From the IMG/VR virus record IMGVR_UViG_3300021171_000016, positions 1 to 50,851 of that record: DNA of 50,851 nt, one strand, 5' to 3'. The notes beneath the pieces were generated by a model. The model was given only the letters and a program-made list of their open reading frames with translations, was not told where the DNA came from and made no database searches. Position numbers and translations under genes: made by a program. The first letter of the stretch is position 1, and each line of letters starts with the position of its first letter. Origin of the DNA: a virus. Shown in pieces: positions 31,706 to 49,595 of this stretch.

Positions 31706-32098
31706 TTACATAACTTGTAGATAGTGGTCGCCCTCGGTCCACATCGCTACGCGAGTGCCGTGGAGTTGTACGATGCAACCCTCCGAGCTTGTTGCGGGGT
31801 GATCGGCGTTCGCTCCGTGGCAACGAAACAGGCTACGGCCCTTCATGTCGTTCGAGGGGTCGGGGAGAAGGTTCATCGTATACTTGCCCGTGCGTGGCGA
31901 ATCGTGCGGTTCCTGCAGCGTGTAGAATCCAGCGGGCAACGGCCCAACTTTGTCTACGTCGTCCATCGCCGGGTTGTTGTATCCCTTGCCCTGGCCAGCC
32001 CAGCCAATGCCGAGGAGCGATCCGCCACTGCGGGTTAGGTATCCGGTTCGGCGATCATACTTGAGCATGTGAAGCCTCCCATGATTTGTGGCAGTCAT
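31706..32098 (-). CDS. L,D-transpeptidase-like (Tlde1/DUF2778-like) candidate endolysin
   Basis: A 130-residue protein with Y-N-N-P-A-M-D (40-46), G-P-L-P-A-G-F-Y-T-L (52-61) and R-C-H-G-A-N (92-97) ... S-S-E-G-C-I-V (104-110). The His plus S-x-G-C-x signature is that of YkuD-fold peptidases, closest in pattern to Tlde1/DUF2778 amidase-like effectors. Lying in the lysis block, it is the only peptidoglycan-enzyme candidate. Two starts are credible: ATG 32098 (AAGGAG) and ATG 32068 (GGGAGG, 6 bases); the shorter form begins at the conserved region. The gene overlaps the upstream glycosyltransferase. Confidence 0.7.
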   Translation of the reverse strand: MTATNHGRLHMLKYDRRTGYLTRSGGSLLGIGWAGQGKGYNNPAMDDVDKVGPLPAGFYTLQEPHDSPRTGKYTMNLLPDPSNDMKGRSLFRCHGANADHPATSSEGCIVQLHGTRVAMWTEGDHYLQVM

Positions 32099-32855
32099 AC
32101 ATCATCTCCTTACGGTACTTCTCATGAGGCGAGCCCGCCGAGAGATGACTGGTTACAACTTGGTTGTTTTTGTTCGGCCAATACGACTGGCCCTTGTTCA
32201 GGAAGCGTGTCGTGTCGTCGAAGTACTTCAGCTTCTTGGCTGGCCAATCAAACCCGAGACGATTCCCGACCCAGAGGTCTTCGGCGTAGGGCGTGATGTC
32301 ATCGCGCCACACTCCAGTAATCGGCGCATCGAGTAGGTGGGTGTACGCCTTCCGGCTCAGAACATAACCTGCGCCTCCGCTGGCATAGTTCTGCTTGCCC
32401 AGGAACTCATTGCGGAAGTCGCCGTAATAATCGAACTCCGTGAACGGGCGTGTCAGCAAGCGCTCGATGCGGACGTAGGTATCGGGGAAGCAACGGAAGA
32501 CGAAGTCGTAGTCGTGGGCCTGTGCCCAACGCAACGAGACCTGGGTCTTCGAGGTCAGGTGTCCGTAATCGTCGCGGCAATCTATAAGGACGATCCGCGA
32601 ACATGACCCTGGGTCACCTTTGGCGATCCCAGGGCCGTCCTGGGCCGCGATTCGGGCCGCGATGGCGTCGGTCGGAAGGTTGCCGCATACGTCGCCAGAG
32701 GGGCCAGGATCGCCGAGGAATTGGCTCCCAATGAAGAAGCGGACATCCACGTCGGGGTGATGGATCGCCTCCGCGATCCACGTCTCCCGGCAGGCGTCAT
32801 TCGATCCGTTCCGCTCGAAAAGTTCGCAGGAAGATATAGCAATTAAGAGCTTCAT
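32055..32855 (-). CDS. GT31-like glycosyltransferase
   Basis: A 266-residue protein. It has the GT31 (beta-1,3-galactosyltransferase-like) layout: C-R-E-T-W (near 22-26), V-R-F-F-I-G, D-Y-G-H-L-T-S-K-T-Q, then F-P-D-T-Y-V in place of the D-x-D, G-G-A-G-Y-V-L-S and E-D-L-W-V-G. It would transfer a sugar to a glycan or protein acceptor in the cytoplasm. The first acidic triad is P-D-T, not D-D-D. ATG overlaps the upstream methyltransferase stop (ATGA). Part of a four-gene block. Confidence 0.7.
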   Translation of the reverse strand: MKLLIAISSCELFERNGSNDACRETWIAEAIHHPDVDVRFFIGSQFLGDPGPSGDVCGNLPTDAIAARIAAQDGPGIAKGDPGSCSRIVLIDCRDDYGHLTSKTQVSLRWAQAHDYDFVFRCFPDTYVRIERLLTRPFTEFDYYGDFRNEFLGKQNYASGGAGYVLSRKAYTHLLDAPITGVWRDDITPYAEDLWVGNRLGFDWPAKKLKYFDDTTRFLNKGQSYWPNKNNQVVTSHLSAGSPHEKYRKEMMYDCHKSWEASHAQV

Positions 32856-33451
32856 AACTCTACGATTCCAATCCCTCCGAAGTGAATGTCGGAACAAAAC
32901 TCGATCTTTTTCCCTGGGAGTTCCTTCCAGAAGTCGGCCACGAAGCAACCCGCTCGGCGATGGTGCGGCGTATCCTTGATGTCGTGAAAGATGATGAGCC
33001 CGCCACGCCGAACGAAGCCGCCATACATCTCGTAGTCTTGTTTCACCCCCGCGTAGGAGTGGTCGCCGTCGATGAACAATAGATCAAGGAACTGTCCCGC
33101 CAACAGGCTCATCACAATCGCCCGCGAGTAGCCGTGATGTGAATCACCATTGATGCAGGCGACCTCGCCCTGGTTGGACCATGACCTCATGCGCTCGTTG
33201 CGCCACGCTCGACGATGCTCGTCTTTATAGAGGCCCGATCCGCTCGCGCCAGCGGGAAGGTCCAGGCTGATCTTCAAGTCGTACACGAGCTTGCACCACA
33301 GGAAAAAGGTTCCACCCGACTCGCTGCCAATCTCCAAGCAGTTATGAAGTTCCTTTGGTCGGAGGAAGTCAATTAACTGCCCGAGTTCAATCGGGCATTG
33401 TATTGCACCGTAATCTAAGGCTTGCTTCACTAGCTCTTTGGTTGTCACCAC
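32852..33451 (-). CDS. Class I SAM methyltransferase
   Basis: A 199-residue protein with motif I C-L-E-I-G-S-E-S-G-G-T (39-49), D-L-P near 64-66, and L-L-F-I-D-G-D-H-S-Y-A-G-V (about 124-136) followed by G-G-L-I-I-F-H-D-I, typical of Methyltransf_24 / small O-methyltransferases. Between glycosyltransferases it probably methylates a sugar or peptide. The start is GTG (33451 or 33448), overlapping the neighbour's stop. A cephalosporin-hydroxylase-like relative is possible but the SAM loop favours a methyltransferase. Confidence 0.75.
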   Translation of the reverse strand: MVTTKELVKQALDYGAIQCPIELGQLIDFLRPKELHNCLEIGSESGGTFFLWCKLVYDLKISLDLPAGASGSGLYKDEHRRAWRNERMRSWSNQGEVACINGDSHHGYSRAIVMSLLAGQFLDLLFIDGDHSYAGVKQDYEMYGGFVRRGGLIIFHDIKDTPHHRRAGCFVADFWKELPGKKIEFCSDIHFGGIGIVEL

Positions 33452-34125
33452 GGTAACGCACCACCTCTCTCTTCGTTGTGGTTCGGGTCAGGGTTCCAGC
33501 CGTGCCAGCTTATGAGCTTTGATTTGTCGGCAGGGCCGAGGTCGAAGTTCCAAAGCAGGTCGGAGTTAACAGGCTTCATCCCGGCGTAGCCGAGAGTCAG
33601 GGAGATTGCCCAATCATCGTAGTAGTGGAACTTGCCGCACGGCATCTGCGGATACTTATCGAGGTAGAGGCGGATGGCCTTCTCGCTGAGCCAGATACCA
33701 ACACCTCCGCTAGTGCAGTGACCAATCCCACCACTGAGGCCTTTATCTCCCATCAGCCCAACCCAATCATGCTGCTCGAAGCCAGCGGTCTTGAGCTTTT
33801 CGACATTGACCCAGGTGTCGGCGTCGATCTTGAAGACGTGGGTGTAACCGTTTGCCAAGGCCCAGGTCAGCATCGCGTAGACCTTGCGCACGAGGCAGGC
33901 GTAGGCGTCGTCCACAGGTAGCTCTATCTCGTCCGTGGTCACGTTGCGGGCGAGCGTGTCCTTTATTTCCTGCTCGGTTGGTTCCCAGGTTCGGCCTCGC
34001 CACTGGTTATCTTGGATACCGTAGAAGAAGCGAACGTCCACTCCATGACCGGACAGCATCTCACGGTGAGCCGGGATACGCCAGCGGTCGCGGGCGCATT
34101 GCACAACAGCTATTAAGAGTTTCAT
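33445..34125 (-). CDS. GT31-like glycosyltransferase
   Basis: A 226-residue protein with V-R-F-F-Y-G, H-V-F-K-I-D-A-D-T-W-V (near 93-103, the D-x-D metal site), G-G-I-G-H-C-T-S-G-G-V-G-I-W-L-S, and Y-Y-D-D-W. It is related in pattern to the first transferase and to the N-terminal half of the next gene, which suggests local duplication. ATG 34125 overlaps the upstream stop. Confidence 0.7.
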   Translation of the reverse strand: MKLLIAVVQCARDRWRIPAHREMLSGHGVDVRFFYGIQDNQWRGRTWEPTEQEIKDTLARNVTTDEIELPVDDAYACLVRKVYAMLTWALANGYTHVFKIDADTWVNVEKLKTAGFEQHDWVGLMGDKGLSGGIGHCTSGGVGIWLSEKAIRLYLDKYPQMPCGKFHYYDDWAISLTLGYAGMKPVNSDLLWNFDLGPADKSKLISWHGWNPDPNHNEERGGALPW

Positions 34126-35789
34126 ATTTTGCACCTACTGCAGTGTGTGATCAGGTCTTCGGGTTGGAAGCTAATTTTTTTCGTGACCAGCCCGCGTGCG
34201 TTCTGAATCCTCAGTGTGTTCGTGTTGAAGTCAACCATGTCTCGGTTGCCTGCGAAGCCGACATACTGCTCAATGCCCTGCTGCTTGAACATCGACGGCA
34301 GAGCGTTGATGGCGCGACCCCGCAGCGTCATGTACTGTGGTAGACGCCACTGGAACACGTCGGGAAGCGTCGGCACGTTCACGCCCGACACCCAGGCGAC
34401 CTTGACGCCCATGTCCTTCAGCATTTTGAACCAGACATAATGGTCGCCTCCGATCTTCCACTCGGGACACCAATGCAACCCGGCATCAAACAGCGACCGT
34501 CGTACCATGCAATAGTTAACGGTGAGGTCCACGATGTCAAAGTCGTTACCCGACGGGATGAGCTTCGTCTCGGTGATTGTGGTTCCATCCTGTCGGAAGA
34601 AGCCTTCATAGGCCTGCTTGTTCACACGACCGGAGGCGACCCCAATCTCGGGGTGTGTGTCCAGCGTGTTCATAAGCTTAACAATGCCGTTGCGGGTTTC
34701 AACTCCCTCGAAGTTGAAATCGTCGCAGGCAATGAGGACGTAGTCACGGTCGAAGCTGGCTATCGCTTTGTTGCCCTTCGCACCGAAGCCCGAATCGAAC
34801 GGCAACCACAAGCAGGTATGGCCCTGGTTGCGTAGTCGCGAGTACCACGCAATCTTCCCGTGCTGCTCGAAACCATCATCTACAATAACGATTTTCGCTT
34901 CCGGCATTTGCTTCTGTATGCCATTCACACAGGCGTTAAGGTAGCCATCGCGCAGGAACGTCTTCAGTAGGATTGAAACCCGGTCGAGCGGTCCTGCTGG
35001 CAATCCTGGCTTCATCACTGCCCCGTGCCATAGCCAAGCCTCGTGAATGGCGAGCATCTGCGCGGGCTCGAACTCACATGCTGCGATGATGTCATTCCCC
35101 TGGCGTGGTCCTTCGGGATACGAGAGAGCATTCCTTTTGCTGGCAACCACGGCGTAGCGGTAGTCGGGCGTCGGCGTGATGCCAGCCTTCAGCATGACGT
35201 TGCCCGTAATGCGATCCTCGCACACGTCGCCCTTGTTCCCAGCAATCAAGGCCTCGTCACACTTGGTCACACAATAACGGGTATCGAGTTCGCCTTTGAT
35301 TCCGGCTTGTGCGAGGACTTGTCCGACGAAGCGGTCATCTGCGTTATCGGAGGTTCGCCCGCCATTGATGACAGCGTGTAGGGCTGTAGCAGAAAGCCAG
35401 TATGCAAACCCTGAGCAGTAAGGAGCCGGGTAACCTCCAGATGGACCACGGAGCCTGCCGATGTAATCATGTTTCTCAAATCCCGAAGCAAGCAGGCGGT
35501 CGCATTGGACATAGGTATCATCGTCGCACATGAAGGCGTGGGTGTAGTTGTTTTGCAAGGCCCAGCGACAAATGGCGCGGACCTTCGCGGGGAGTGAAAG
35601 GTAGTCATCGGGACATCCAAGGAACACCTCATCTGGATTACGTTTGAAGGTTGCTGTGTTCGAGTTACCGCCATAGAAGAAGCGAACGTCGGCACCACGC
35701 ACGCCAGCAGCCCAGGTTGTTCTCTGGGCTGCTGCGCGATGTCTATACTTCTCACACGTCTTGACTGCAATCAATACTTTGGTCGCCAC
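34122..35789 (-). CDS. Two-domain glycosyltransferase (GT31-like + GT2-like)
   Basis: A 555-residue protein. Residues about 1-225 are GT31-like: V-L-I-A-V-K-T-C, R-T-T-W, V-R-F-F-Y-G, then F-M-C-D-D-D-T-Y (D-x-D) and Y-C-S-G-F-A-Y-W-L-S. Residues about 270-540 are a GT-A (GT2-like) domain with V-S-I-L-L-K-T-F-L-R, I-V-I-V-D-D-G and V-L-I-A-C-D-D-F-N-F, and a later G-G-D-H-Y. Two catalytic domains could add successive sugars. I chose GTG 35789 with AAGGAG 6 bases upstream over in-frame ATGs further upstream. Confidence 0.75.
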   Translation of the reverse strand: MATKVLIAVKTCEKYRHRAAAQRTTWAAGVRGADVRFFYGGNSNTATFKRNPDEVFLGCPDDYLSLPAKVRAICRWALQNNYTHAFMCDDDTYVQCDRLLASGFEKHDYIGRLRGPSGGYPAPYCSGFAYWLSATALHAVINGGRTSDNADDRFVGQVLAQAGIKGELDTRYCVTKCDEALIAGNKGDVCEDRITGNVMLKAGITPTPDYRYAVVASKRNALSYPEGPRQGNDIIAACEFEPAQMLAIHEAWLWHGAVMKPGLPAGPLDRVSILLKTFLRDGYLNACVNGIQKQMPEAKIVIVDDGFEQHGKIAWYSRLRNQGHTCLWLPFDSGFGAKGNKAIASFDRDYVLIACDDFNFEGVETRNGIVKLMNTLDTHPEIGVASGRVNKQAYEGFFRQDGTTITETKLIPSGNDFDIVDLTVNYCMVRRSLFDAGLHWCPEWKIGGDHYVWFKMLKDMGVKVAWVSGVNVPTLPDVFQWRLPQYMTLRGRAINALPSMFKQQGIEQYVGFAGNRDMVDFNTNTLRIQNARGLVTKKISFQPEDLITHCSRCKI

Positions 35790-35799
35790 TGGTTTCTCC

Positions 35800-36429
35800 T
35801 TATGGTGTGACTTCATCCCAGGTGAGTGTGGGCTGGATGGTGAGGTCGGCAGGCGTACCTCCCAGACCAAAGAACGCAATGCCGTAGCCTGGGGCAATAA
35901 TGATAGCACCCGCTACGTCGTCGTGAACAACGCCAACCACATCTGCTCCTGGAGTAGCCGTGCCGAGCGTCCAGCCAGCGATCTGCCGAATGAATGCGGG
36001 CGCAACCAGGATCGTCGCAGTTGGTGCAGCGATGGCTACGGACTTTCCGCCATTGCCAACGAAGCATTGAGTTGGGACAATCAGCGTTCCGATTGTTCCG
36101 GGTGTGACGGCACAGGCGAACCAACCTAGCTCAACGCCGCTTCCGATTAAGGTCTGCGCGGTGTAGCCTGTCAACACCACAGTCGAGTCAAGGATGACAA
36201 GATTCTTTCCTGACCCTGACGGGTTAATCAAAACATCTAGCGCTGAAGTTGATGCCGCGCCTGTCACTGCGGCTGCGAACAATACCGAGAATTTTTGGCC
36301 TCGATAAGTGTTCTCGTAATATCGGGGCATGAGTTCCGTTACGGTCGCTTCGGAAAATTCACCGAAGCCGAGCGTCAGACCCTGTCCGGTTTGCTTTCCT
36401 GTTTGCCCTTGGTTGCCTTGAGATAACAT
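35800..36429 (-). CDS. Virion surface or fibre-type protein
   Basis: A 209-residue beta-rich protein with a Gly/Gln-rich start (N-Q-G-Q-T-G-K-Q-T-G-Q-G) then many strands (L-I-V-P-T-Q-C-F-V-G, G-I-A-F-F-G-L-G-G). The alternating small-hydrophobic pattern fits a trimeric fibre or baseplate protein. AAAGGAG precedes the ATG. No family certain. Confidence 0.6.
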   Translation of the reverse strand: MLSQGNQGQTGKQTGQGLTLGFGEFSEATVTELMPRYYENTYRGQKFSVLFAAAVTGAASTSALDVLINPSGSGKNLVILDSTVVLTGYTAQTLIGSGVELGWFACAVTPGTIGTLIVPTQCFVGNGGKSVAIAAPTATILVAPAFIRQIAGWTLGTATPGADVVGVVHDDVAGAIIIAPGYGIAFFGLGGTPADLTIQPTLTWDEVTP

Positions 36430-44191: not shown

Positions 44192-44767
44192 TTAGCTGCC
44201 CGACTGGAATACATCGTAGATCTTGAACAGGACCGTCCCGCTGATCTTGCGAGCGTCGAAGGTTACGGGGATGATGACCTTGTCCTTGCGGGTCATCTTC
44301 AGCGTAACTGCGGCCATCGCGATAGCCTTCTGCATGATGACGACGCGGACGAGGTTCGTCCCTGGCGCAGGGCCTTGCACGCCGACCATCGTATACTGCA
44401 ACGGCAACGAACCCACGGTCACGGCTTCGTACTCGTTAGCAATCAAGTCATTGAACAATGACGAGGCCGAGATAGCCGCGTTAAGGTTGGCCAGAGTGGC
44501 CTCGGCCAAGTGTGCCGAGACTACGAACTTTTCTTTCTCCAGGATGTCGAGAACAGGGGCCGCTTCCTCGTCAACCGTAATCTCCTTGATGGTCGGCGTG
44601 TAGGTCAGGTCGATGCCCGAGTCCGTGTATCCAACAGCGACCCAGGGGGCAAGCCAAACAACCGGGTTCTCTCCGTGTTGATCGAAGACAGGTTGAGCCG
44701 TGCCCAGAGGTGCGATGTATATCAACCCAGGCCCGGCGACTACGTTTGTTGCATTCGGTTCACTCAT
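44192..44767 (-). CDS. Major tail (tube) protein
   Basis: A 191-residue protein with T-N-V-V-A-G-P-G-L-I-Y-I-A-P and V-G-Y-T-D-S-G-I-D-L-T-Y-T, typical of a siphophage tail tube N-terminus, and a C-terminal strand region (V-F-K-I-Y-D-V-F-Q). It assembles into hexameric rings around the tape measure. Followed by a hairpin. Confidence 0.8.
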   Translation of the reverse strand: MSEPNATNVVAGPGLIYIAPLGTAQPVFDQHGENPVVWLAPWVAVGYTDSGIDLTYTPTIKEITVDEEAAPVLDILEKEKFVVSAHLAEATLANLNAAISASSLFNDLIANEYEAVTVGSLPLQYTMVGVQGPAPGTNLVRVVIMQKAIAMAAVTLKMTRKDKVIIPVTFDARKISGTVLFKIYDVFQSGS

Positions 44768-44812: not shown

Positions 44813-47290
44813 TTATACCGCTGTCATGTTAAGTTTGTTCCAAGTTGCGGAGCCCGCTGCCCCTGTCACGCTGCAGAAGTACACGAGGCCGCTGAAATAG
44901 ATGAGCTGACCAGCCGTGCCCGCCGTTCCCGCTGAAGTCGGAGCACCCGCCGAAGCTGCAAGTAGAAGAGTCTTGAGGTTCAACTCCCCGCTGTTGTCAC
45001 CTTGTGTTCCATTGCCTACGGCAAGTACGGCTGCCGCTGTACGACTCAAACCCGTGTCAATTGATCCGGAGAAGATGCTTGTTGCACTTTGCCAATGTAT
45101 CGGCATTCCCGAACCAAGCAGCAGACCAGCTATGTTGATCTGAGCGACAGTACCAACATCCATAAAGGAGCCAGCGGTTATTGCTGCTGTCGTGGTGACC
45201 GAGGCCGCGCTGATTGCTCCTGTCGTGTTCGCGGTTGGCAACGCTCCAGACGGAGTGACCGATCCATTGTCAATCCAGCTAGTGGCTGTCTGGCCAACAA
45301 CGGTAGCCATCAATAACTCAGCACCCGTGCTGCGTCCGTATACTTTGTAGCCAGTCGCACCTAACACTCCACCCCAATTGACAGTCGTAATGTTGGTGGA
45401 TGTGCCAGCCGGGACGACAATGCTTGTCTCGGCGTTGGCAAGAGAGTTGCCAACCGAATCATACGCAGCAACTCTATAATAATAAGTCGCTGGTGTAAGC
45501 GTGCCGCCTGTCGTTGCCGTGGTGTTGACGCTCGTCGCAGGCGTCCCTAACTGACTGACTATAAGATCAAATGCTGAAACCGGAGCAAACAACGCAGCAG
45601 CCGCCGGGTTAAGTGTCAAGATAGCCGGAACCGAGGCCGCAGCAACCCCATCACTCAAAGCAAAGTTAAGCTGGCCAATCAAGAAACCATTTGTACTCAG
45701 ACTATTAACCGTGACGTTGAAAAACGCAGCCAAGGCTTGTGTTGAATTCGCCGAGCGTGCATAAAAATTATTAGAACCAACAAAATCTCCGGCTTGCACA
45801 GCGAGTGGGGAGCCCACAGTTCCACGCTGACGGTAATACTCTATGTATGGATAGAGAAAGCTTGTGTTGCTGTACCAGTTGAGTAGAAGTCCATTGGCTA
45901 CTGATCCGTCAGTCTGAAATTCGGGGGCAGTAGCAATCCCTGAAAACGTCGGTGAGGCCTTCGGAGCCAACAACGCTTCTGCTGTCTGCGCTCTGGTTTT
46001 CTCTACCCCGACTGCAGAGTCAGCATAGGCTGTGCTCGCTGCCACGACGGAACTGGTTAAAGCCGTAGCTGTCGGAACCTTCACGACTACTGCCGTCCCA
46101 CCAAGGCCAGCCGAATTGGATAGATCAAAAGTCGCCTGACCCGACCCTCCCAAGTGAAACAATGACCAGACGCTTGCCGGATTTGCTCCAGCAGCGAGTT
46201 GATTGAGAAAACCCCATGCCTCCTCTACTGAGGTGCTGCCGTTCCAATAGTTTCCCTCGGTGACAATGGCGGGGCAGATGACGTTAAGTCCTGCCGTCGC
46301 AAGAATCTTGTTAACAATCGCAAAGGTCGGACCAACTGAGCCTGGATGACCTGCGAAGCATAGTGATAAATTTGTCGAGTTAATAGTGCCTGTGCCATCC
46401 GAACTAACATGAGTGCCAAGAATAACCGACAACATTGCACTTGCTAGGCCCGTCCAGTAGGTGCCATCAAACTCAAGCGCTGGCGGATCTTGCTGCTGAG
46501 TATTAGTTGATGGAGTATTGTTTTCGACGAGCACGCCGCTGGTAAAGACATTGTTCGGAACACTGCCAATCGCATTATCGACGATGACAACCGGAGCCGT
46601 AAAGTTTGGACTAACCCGAGGCGCAAGCAATGCTTCCGCTGCTTCTGCTCTAGAGGTCTCGGTTCCCTCTGCGGTTTCGGCTCTGGTAGTCTCGGTAGCA
46701 ACTGCGGCTGTCGAGAAAGTTTCCGCCGTCGTGATTGCCTCGACAATGTCGGTATCGAGTTCAGCTTCCGCTGCTTCGGCCCGTGCGACTTCGGCGGCGA
46801 CTAATCCTGCAACGTACTGCGCGACGGTCTGACCGTCCTGCGTCTGCACATCCTCAGTCAGGGTGTTGTTCGCACTCGCGAGAATCTGATAACGTCCATG
46901 ACAGCACGCCCAGCCCGTGTCCGGGTCGGAGCTATCTTGCGGAGCGGTGACCTCCATACAGCGGGTGACAAGGCCAAGCATCCCGAAGCTTTGATTGGTT
47001 GCGCCGTTGAGCAGGTCTTGGATGGCGCAATACACGGCCCGCGCCTCGATGTAGTTCTCAACATCGGCCCACACCTTAACCGTCTTGATGTCGTCAACGA
47101 AGCTCTGAAAGTCGGTTTGTGGGATTCCACCCGAGCCGACGATCTGGATTGCAGGGCCAAGCGACGGGTCGAAATGTTCTGGCAGATCTGGGCCGCAGTA
47201 GACGCTGCTGTTCGCATTCGTTCCGAGCAGCGAGGTAATCGCTGTTGAAGCGAGCAGCCAATTGCGAATGAGGATGTTAGTGTCAACCAT
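44813..47290 (-). CDS. Tail terminator-like N-terminus fused to long fibre-like region
   Basis: An 825-residue protein. Residues about 1-135 look like a tail completion/terminator protein (DUF3168-like): N-I-L-I-R-N-W-L-L-A-S-T-A-I-T, V-Y-C-G-P-D-L-P-E, I-K-T-V-K-V-W-A-D. Residues about 160-225 are Ala/Glu coiled coil (A-R-A-E-A-A-E-A). The remaining ~600 residues are Ser/Thr/Ala-rich with a fibronectin-type-III-like domain (T-Y-Y-Y-R-V-A-A-Y-D-S-V-G) and a fibre-type end. Position (between HK97 gp10-like and tail tube) is that of the terminator. A single continuous frame is seen, with no internal stop or strong internal start. Confidence 0.7.
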   Translation of the reverse strand: MVDTNILIRNWLLASTAITSLLGTNANSSVYCGPDLPEHFDPSLGPAIQIVGSGGIPQTDFQSFVDDIKTVKVWADVENYIEARAVYCAIQDLLNGATNQSFGMLGLVTRCMEVTAPQDSSDPDTGWACCHGRYQILASANNTLTEDVQTQDGQTVAQYVAGLVAAEVARAEAAEAELDTDIVEAITTAETFSTAAVATETTRAETAEGTETSRAEAAEALLAPRVSPNFTAPVVIVDNAIGSVPNNVFTSGVLVENNTPSTNTQQQDPPALEFDGTYWTGLASAMLSVILGTHVSSDGTGTINSTNLSLCFAGHPGSVGPTFAIVNKILATAGLNVICPAIVTEGNYWNGSTSVEEAWGFLNQLAAGANPASVWSLFHLGGSGQATFDLSNSAGLGGTAVVVKVPTATALTSSVVAASTAYADSAVGVEKTRAQTAEALLAPKASPTFSGIATAPEFQTDGSVANGLLLNWYSNTSFLYPYIEYYRQRGTVGSPLAVQAGDFVGSNNFYARSANSTQALAAFFNVTVNSLSTNGFLIGQLNFALSDGVAAASVPAILTLNPAAAALFAPVSAFDLIVSQLGTPATSVNTTATTGGTLTPATYYYRVAAYDSVGNSLANAETSIVVPAGTSTNITTVNWGGVLGATGYKVYGRSTGAELLMATVVGQTATSWIDNGSVTPSGALPTANTTGAISAASVTTTAAITAGSFMDVGTVAQINIAGLLLGSGMPIHWQSATSIFSGSIDTGLSRTAAAVLAVGNGTQGDNSGELNLKTLLLAASAGAPTSAGTAGTAGQLIYFSGLVYFCSVTGAAGSATWNKLNMTAV

Positions 47291-47669
47291 TGCGCTTCTT
47301 CACTTCCGCTGCGAGATTAACTATTGTTTCTTGGAATGCCGGGAAGATGTAAGGTCGTGCCGCCATCTTCGCCGTACCATTTTCGAGATAGCCGCCATAC
47401 CCAGACTGCGTGAATATCTCCGCATGAACACCTTCGGCGACTCGTGTCACCTCGGTGTCGATGGAATTCCTGTTGAGGCCCGTGTGGTGATACTTCTGCG
47501 AATCCGGTAACGTGTCCTGCCGTGGCGTGGTTGGAGGTGGAGGCGCGAGTTCTTTCGCCCGCGCCTTCATGTCGATTTCAAAGATTGTTAGGGTCGCGCT
47601 GAAGACCGCTTCCTGCATCTTCGCTCTCGCTTCAGCGGTGCGCAACGTGACTTGTACAACCTCATCCAT
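47283..47669 (-). CDS. HK97 gp10-like head-tail protein
   Basis: A 128-residue protein starting at ATG 47669 with GGAGAATTGAG upstream. N-terminal helix (V-T-L-R-T-A-E-A-R-A-K-M-Q), then P-P-P-P-T-T-P, then H-T-G-L-N-R-N-S-I and G-Y-G-G-Y-L-E-N-G-T-A-K-M-A-A-R-P-Y-I, the gp10/neck type I signature. It connects head to tail. It overlaps the next gene by 8 bases. Confidence 0.8.
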   Translation of the reverse strand: MDEVVQVTLRTAEARAKMQEAVFSATLTIFEIDMKARAKELAPPPPTTPRQDTLPDSQKYHHTGLNRNSIDTEVTRVAEGVHAEIFTQSGYGGYLENGTAKMAARPYIFPAFQETIVNLAAEVKKRNG

Positions 47670-47670
47670 C

Positions 47671-48051
47671 TCAATTCTCCAGGTATAATTCACACCACAC
47701 TTCAAGGTGATGACCCGTTAAGCCTGGGTCGTCGATCTGAAATATCTGATACTTCTGCGGAGCCGGATAATCTTTACTCGTGACGAGAAGCCAGTGGTGC
47801 GGTCCGAGCGGCGTGTTGTCGGCTGGGTTATACCAGGGCCGCATGAACACACACTTGTAATTAACCGCGATCTTTTTCCCTGTCTTCCACTCTCGGGCAC
47901 GTCCCTTGCCGAGAGAGATGCGGCAAGGGACGCCTGTCGCGAGCGTCTGGAAAGTTGGATCGCTGACGCCATAAGCGTCTGCGTTGTTTCCCGCGTCACG
48001 CGACAAGACCGAAGCGAGGCCAGTCAACTGAGCATCGAAAGGATCAAGCAT
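47671..48051 (-). CDS. Head closure protein
   Basis: A 126-residue beta-rich protein at ATG 48051 with AAGGAG upstream. L-A-T-G-V-P-C-R-I and W-L-L-V-T-S-K-D-Y-P with H-H-L-E-V-W-C match small neck/head-closure (SPP1 gp16-like) proteins. Ends one base before the gp10-like start. Confidence 0.65.
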   Translation of the reverse strand: MLDPFDAQLTGLASVLSRDAGNNADAYGVSDPTFQTLATGVPCRISLGKGRAREWKTGKKIAVNYKCVFMRPWYNPADNTPLGPHHWLLVTSKDYPAPQKYQIFQIDDPGLTGHHLEVWCELYLEN

Positions 48052-48298: not shown

Positions 48299-48750
48299 TA
48301 GAGTTCCGTTCTGAGCACCCAATTGCGGATGATCGTTAGCTCGTTAAAGCCAGAGGAATTGTCTTCGATGTAACCCCAGGCTGGCATCTCATTAATAGCT
48401 GTGCGGAATCCGTCGGCCAGCGCTTTAATCTGCGTGACCTGATCTTTGCCCGTCAGCTTGTAATCGCCGATGGAAATCGTCTGACCTGCCGTGCCGCTTG
48501 CGACCCGCGCAGCGAGCGAATCCAGGGCTGTGCCACACGCCATGAATAAAACTTCGTTCTGCATGAGCGATGGCCCGTAATAGCCGACTTGGTTCGGTGC
48601 GCCGATAGGTCCAGACATCTGGGCAATCGTAAGGTTGAGGACCATGTTTAGCTCCTCGTCCTGAAAGTTCGCGCCTGCCAAGGTAATATCCCCGAGCAAG
48701 AATCGCATCTTGCCCAGGGTTGTCAGACCAAGGTCGTAGGTGAACGTCAT
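48298..48750 (-). CDS. Head-tail connector (adaptor)
   Basis: A 150-residue protein. R-F-L-L-G-D near residues 16-21 and L-M-Q-N-E-V-L-F-M-A-C-G-T-A-L-D-S-L-A helix, then I-S-I-G-D-Y-K-L-T-G, as in HK97 gp6 / SPP1 gp15-type adaptors that bind under the portal. Overlaps neighbours by 1 and 4 bases. Confidence 0.75.
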   Translation of the reverse strand: MTFTYDLGLTTLGKMRFLLGDITLAGANFQDEELNMVLNLTIAQMSGPIGAPNQVGYYGPSLMQNEVLFMACGTALDSLAARVASGTAGQTISIGDYKLTGKDQVTQIKALADGFRTAINEMPAWGYIEDNSSGFNELTIIRNWVLRTEL

Positions 48751-49595
48751 GCTGGACCTTGACCTTCCAAGGTCGTAGAGGTCGTCACGTTGCCAACAGC
48801 GAGAGTTGCTGGCAGGCCCGAGTTGGTGTTAGGTGAGCTTCCGTCGAGTGGTTCGACAATGCCAGCGAGGTTCGTATCCGTCAGACCTGCGCCGATGCCG
48901 CTCCCAACTCTCGCTTGGCCTGCGGTTGCTGCGGGAAGCCCTGCGTTGGTGTTCGGTGAGCTTCCGTCAATCGCGAGCAAATCCGAAGCAACGACAACAG
49001 GATTCGTCACAACAGGTGTAGTCGTCGCGTTCTGTTGCAATTGATCGAGTCCGGTTCCTTCCGTCGCCACGCCGAAGAGTGTCGCGGTAGGGATGCCAGC
49101 GGGTACGGCAATGTTGCTATGAATGCCTGCGACCTCCTGATCCAACTGCGGCACGGTTGTGGTAGCGGGGGTCGTGGTGACCGTCGCATCTGCATAGGTC
49201 GAAGCAGCAATCCCAGCCAGGGCAAGGCCAGCGCCCGTGCCGGATTCGTCGGAAGTCAAGCCGTCATCGGTGAAAGGTCCAGTCCCAGGCGAATTCGCAT
49301 AGAGCAGACCGGAGTTCACGTTCGGGCTCGGGCCGTCAATCGCCATGAGGATATGAGTCTTCAAAGGCGCGGCGACGGTGTTGTCAGTCATCGTGCTTCC
49401 AACCACGCCTCCGTAGGTGGATTGATTGTTTGAGATACCCGGCGAGCCTCCGTCAACAGCATCGACAGGAACGGTCGTCGGATTCTCGGCGCAGCCGGAA
49501 TCGTGGAAAGTCGCGCCTGCGCAAGTGAACACGCCACTTGAGACTTGCGTCCCAGAATAATTCGGATTGCCAAGATTAGGTGAGCCTTGTGGCAT
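48747..49595 (-). CDS. Repeat-rich virion protein
   Basis: A 282-residue low-complexity protein, rich in Gly, Thr, Ala, Asn, Ser. A motif [VIL]-D-G-x-S-P recurs at about residues 48, 87, 210 and 251, three times continuing with N-x-N-[SA]-G-L. It also starts with one C-A-G and one C-A-E cysteine. Lying right after the capsid gene, it may be a decoration or fibre protein with surface loops. No known family. Confidence 0.65.
   Translation of the reverse strand: MPQGSPNLGNPNYSGTQVSSGVFTCAGATFHDSGCAENPTTVPVDAVDGGSPGISNNQSTYGGVVGSTMTDNTVAAPLKTHILMAIDGPSPNVNSGLLYANSPGTGPFTDDGLTSDESGTGAGLALAGIAASTYADATVTTTPATTTVPQLDQEVAGIHSNIAVPAGIPTATLFGVATEGTGLDQLQQNATTTPVVTNPVVVASDLLAIDGSSPNTNAGLPAATAGQARVGSGIGAGLTDTNLAGIVEPLDGSSPNTNSGLPATLAVGNVTTSTTLEGQGPA

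Follow-up and report, generated by a model that had tools for sequence, protein, structure and literature searches.

The window, a 50,851-nt soil-phage entry of IMG/VR (IMGVR_UViG_3300021171_000016) taken from end to end, carries a gene that is probably (about 0.68) a true fusion of a tail terminator with a neck fibre, standing at the head-tail junction and serving most likely in host-surface contact. Terminators are commonly viewed as minimal, conserved ring proteins. The gene lies in a minus-strand, siphophage-like tail module consisting of capsid, adaptor-like, stopper-like, gp10-like, fused, tube, chaperone-like and tape-measure-like genes. The initial annotation had drawn a single open reading frame here; its coordinates are exact, and the frame check gave an ATG start and 825 codons free of internal stops (Table 1). 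At its start the fused gene shares 8 nt with the gp10-like gene, and 45 nt separate its stop from the tube gene. Elsewhere in the window, a 282-aa protein with AIDGSSPNTNSGLP-type repeats and no family match is encoded between the capsid and adaptor genes (48747-49595), and a cluster with weak glycosyltransferase matches lies downstream of the tail-tip genes (32055-35909).

Table 1. Features of the fused gene and its two neighbours (window positions; L numbers denote loci compared with the window).
Feature	Position	Strand	Basis
Fused gene, terminator plus fibre, 825 aa	44813-47290	-	single ORF
HK97 gp10-like / Neck1 protein, upstream neighbour	47283-47705	-	phrog_5, E 2.6e-11; sequence
Major tail (tube) protein, downstream neighbour	44192-44767	-	PF25681, E 5.4e-10; phrog_2175, 7.9e-17
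Tail terminator domain, DUF3168/gp17 fold, residues 1-139	46874-47290	-	phrog_123; PF11367 of relatives; AlphaFold2 and Foldseek
Predicted long helix or coiled coil opening the fibre, residues 153-222	46625-46834	-	AlphaFold2, low confidence; ETTRAETAEG repeat common to other fibres
Putative fibre shaft, residues 164-422	46025-46801	-	homology to the separate L012 fibre gene; also the L042 fibre
Second coiled-coil motif, TAYADSAVGVEKTRAQTAEALLAPKASPTFSG	45917-46033	-	common to the fibres of L012, L003, L063 and L013
Possible Ig/FN3-like domain, residues 603-688	45227-45484	-	similarity to Arthrobacter phages; weak FN3 match
Fibre tip, residues 735-825, ending ...ATWNKLNMTAV	44816-45088	-	identity to other fibre C-termini

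Profile, fold and gene position all identify residues 1-139 as a tail terminator. PHROG 123 ('tail terminator') matches residues 19-136 in a profile search (E 3.6e-4). The terminators of relatives are 45-50% identical to the fusion over the same domain, and two of them exceed the PF11367 (Tail_completion_gp17) cut-off of 24.5 bits (L004, 26.2 bits; L006, 25.1 bits); the fusion's own copy falls below it in the Pfam search, and a Pfam match obtained with the full 825-aa protein was dismissed as chance. AlphaFold2 modelled residues 1-150 from an alignment of 14 sequences with a pLDDT of 86.9 and a pTM of 0.81. The terminator sequence profile found no match in the PDB, so a fold search was needed; the best PDB matches of the model in Foldseek are terminators or connector chains, including the Bxb1 connector chain (3.3e-7), phiXa, Douge, lambda gpU (2.7e-6), GTA and T5 p142. 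When the terminator profile was run against the other ORFs of the window's structural (minus) strand, none matched, leaving the fusion as the sole candidate, and it occupies the terminator slot, with the gp10-like neck gene on one side and the tube gene on the other. Both the DUF3168-like N-terminus and the gene position proposed in the initial annotation are thus borne out. In fold, size and gp10-like-to-tube position, the N-terminal domain resembles SPP1 gp17 and lambda gpU (PF11367, phrog_123); proteins of that kind, however, are single-domain and 114-160 aa long, whereas the fusion adds a 685-residue fibre.

Homology to the fibres of L012, L042, L063, L065, L002 and L003 identifies the residues beyond the terminator as a fibre. 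Residues 164-422 align with a 669-aa fibre of L012 (37% identity, 270 columns, E 8e-34), which itself matches tail-fibre PHROGs. The C-terminal residues 735-825 share 54-73% identity with the fibre C-termini of L002, L003, L042, L063 and L065. The AlphaFold2 monomer of the fibre part (pLDDT 35) contained only a 70-residue helix (fragment residues 13-82) and was excluded from the fold search; this predicted helix, together with an ETxRAExAEALL repeat, makes a coiled coil plausible. Furthermore, Arthrobacter phages contain a region, annotated as major tail protein, to which residues ~603-688 are similar (best E 1e-5). The fibre part gave no Pfam FN3 match, and one designed FN3 matched it weakly (E 0.004). 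Among the elements named initially, the fibre-type end is therefore firm, the coiled coil plausible and the FN3-like domain weakly indicated. As to the fibres sharing this tip, that of L002, probably a podophage (L002:4486-6276), shares 65-71% identity over ~330 residues with those of L063 (4183-6303) and L065 (4093-6360), a likeness that points to module exchange between podophage and siphophage tails.

Relatives were gathered by tube, capsid and terminator searches, which yielded about 14 distinct related loci. Used by itself as a query against viral contigs and isolates, the window's terminator domain gave no matches, and the relatives were reached through the tube and capsid proteins. In relatives, which the initial annotation had proposed to check for separate genes, the two parts do occur as such: L012, L013, L042, L063 and L065 encode a normal short terminator directly followed by a fibre gene, with overlaps of 4 nt in L012 and L013, -22 nt in L042 and 1 nt in L063 and L065. 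L063 and L065 have other gene content and a different terminator, with strong PF11367 matches (E 7.6e-11 and 4e-13); a glycosyltransferase-like gene, judged by eye, also lies between their gp10-like and tube genes (L063:6856-7650, L065:6964-7728). In five further loci (L004, L036, L045, L046, L050), a terminator of 138-147 aa is followed by the tube gene and the slot is empty.

Compared with the separate fibre of L012, the fusion is without the first ~73 residues, and in the AlphaFold2 models its helix begins ~14 residues past the terminator's last strand. Because this stretch is absent and the remainder continues from the terminator, the sequences argue for an in-frame deletion-fusion of the two genes and not for a lost or missed stop codon. 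The same absence speaks against a simple read-through and against the sequencing-error fusion that the initial annotation had raised, since an indel would have kept these residues. A chimeric join of adjacent terminator and fibre genes in a metagenome contig would in addition have had to retain the frame and both correct neighbours, the gp10-like gene upstream and the tube gene downstream. Such an artefact finds some encouragement in the two-gene arrangement of relatives at the same place, in the single metagenome contig from which the fusion is known (our scans found no second copy) and in a shift of GC3 near the junction, from about 0.69 to about 0.5 past the terminator. The drop may mean that fibre and terminator differ in history; lower GC3 is, however, also a property of the unfused L012 and L042 fibres. 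We regard an assembly or sequencing artefact as quite improbable.

Genes that are separate in relatives and fused elsewhere are classic evidence that their products interact. As the pair is separate in relatives and fused in the window, we infer that terminator and fibre products interact, and the fusion together with the gene neighbourhood suggests a neck location for the fibre. The neck fibre or collar whisker proposed in the initial annotation gains backing, by inference, from the fibre gene placed right after the terminator in five related or distant phages. We postulate that six copies of residues 1-139 would form a ring capping the head-proximal end of the tube, by analogy with known terminators, which form hexamers atop the tube (PMC11784142). 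Each chain would run from just past the terminator's last strand into the helix, and three chains could coil together, giving two trimeric fibres per hexameric ring with the conserved tip at the end. The fibre would project outward at the head-tail junction and would most likely contribute to host-surface contact. An outward C-terminus is plausible because the C-terminal arms of the terminators of the myophages Milano (PMC10491603) and 812 (PMC12886913) reach the outer sheath. For T5, a tag placed at the terminator's C-terminus has been proposed to lie folded inside the lumen (PMC11784142), an arrangement ill suited to a long outward fibre and a reason for caution.

The chain might instead be cut or separately initiated, so that the virion holds a free terminator and a free fibre and joining the two genes mainly serves to fix their expression and stoichiometry. 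In favour of this are the ~14-residue linker from last strand to helix, predicted with low confidence and probably flexible, and the two separate, closely coupled products of relatives. Nevertheless, we identified no protease site, and a fibre without its N-terminus would have no anchor of its own. Separate initiation fares no better, as there is no good internal start: the one nearby candidate, GTG148, has a GAGG just 2 nt upstream and is implausible. Release of a free fibre is accordingly an unlikely outcome, and we retain the fibre covalently borne by the terminator ring as the preferred reading.

A general adhesin, its gene beside the terminator by chance and its true place at the tail tip or side, was also considered. 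Fibres with the same tip are found in L003, whose fibre gene comes after a tail-tip gene, and on the apparent podophage tail of L002, and fibres with the coiled-coil motif lie mostly elsewhere: only 1 of 17 viral motif loci adjoins a terminator, and this is the L013 contig again. In the window, however, the fibre belongs to the terminator chain itself, and five other phages of at least two groups keep the fibre right after the terminator. All ten isolate phages inspected have a terminator of 114-138 aa; the gene that follows is usually the tube gene and in no case an annotated fibre gene. A general adhesin placed by chance is thus very unlikely. PF11367 matches in Acidobacteriota genomes lie in open frames of 135-283 aa; from these, the isolates and the motif loci, neither the coiled-coil motif nor the PF11367 family predicts the arrangement. 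The Tunturi_3 fibre has no annotated terminator in its neighbourhood.

Fibres at the neck have been described for T4 (wac), A-1(L) and lactococcal phages (PMC10966104, PMC6669499). The neck passage structure of lactococcal 936 phages and TP901-1 (PMC6669499, PMC4493119) is, like the fibre proposed here, borne on a siphophage neck and combines a coiled coil with a distal module. In contrast to the fusion, it is encoded by a gene of its own (which in TP901-1 closes the tail module), has a BppU-like anchor, forms its own collar and is proposed to sit on the portal or connector, unjoined to the terminator; a BppU-like N-terminal anchor is absent from the fusion, whose N-terminus is the terminator by profile and fold search. 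Anabaena phage A-1(L) (PMC10966104) also offers a parallel to the proposed fibres, namely trimeric fibres standing at the neck, gp82/gp81/gp80; these, however, are individual gene products latched onto the pentadecameric neck protein gp5, and the phage has a contractile tail. A neck carbohydrate-binding module of one lactococcal phage bound host cells, whereas that of A-1(L) failed to bind the phage's host; because of this difference, a host-contact role is put forward here as probable.

The larger terminators of the myophage type, PVC16 and phage 812 (PMC11784142, PMC12886913), share with the proposed architecture an added domain and an outward C-terminal arm, but their extra domains bind sheath or tube and carry no fibres. 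Added domains may already be present in some of the terminators on record: the 394-position profile of phrog_347 exceeds a terminator domain, and in its later portion it matches FN3/LamG-like segments of cellular proteins. This hint tempers the novelty of the fusion, although a search through the LamG part found no long phrog_347 member. The join of terminator and fibre was not found in the literature covered or in the ten isolates. Neck fibres have precedents, and so do larger terminators; their joining appears to be a new variant.

A second, different extension, of ~165 aa, is found at the C-terminus of the 308-aa terminators of L005 and L006. The L005 group comprises several near-identical contigs and one contig binned as Bryobacterales (Acidobacteriota), and a search of Acidobacteriota genomes returned as its sole match this contig, which had supplied the query. 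Since the extension domain is a separate gene adjoining the terminator in L038, the terminator C-terminus appears to be a repeated fusion point. The terminator tree does not group the window with L005 and L006, with support too weak to count or date events. Several genes in the terminator-to-tube slot (L005:4450-5670, L006:4091-5038, L007:2164-3171, L038:2605-3408, L044:9449-10258) bear Sec-type signal peptides by eye, an unusual trait in virion proteins, and the domain fused to the L005/L006 terminator recurs in some of them. The same slot in L007 (5617-7860) encodes a 747-aa protein with the look of a beta-propeller glycosidase, by eye, and no Pfam match.

As a whole, in a group of soil siphophages, probably of Acidobacteriota, the terminator-tube interval could be a dedicated neck-appendage slot for which the terminator ring serves as anchor, covalently extended at least twice; we hold this wider proposal to be evenly poised. 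If the terminator carries fibres, its ring would double as an adhesin platform. The fusion would then indicate to what the otherwise unplaced fibres encoded beside terminators in other phages are anchored and, as a naturally occurring covalent attachment site on the neck, would make the role of neck fibres directly testable.
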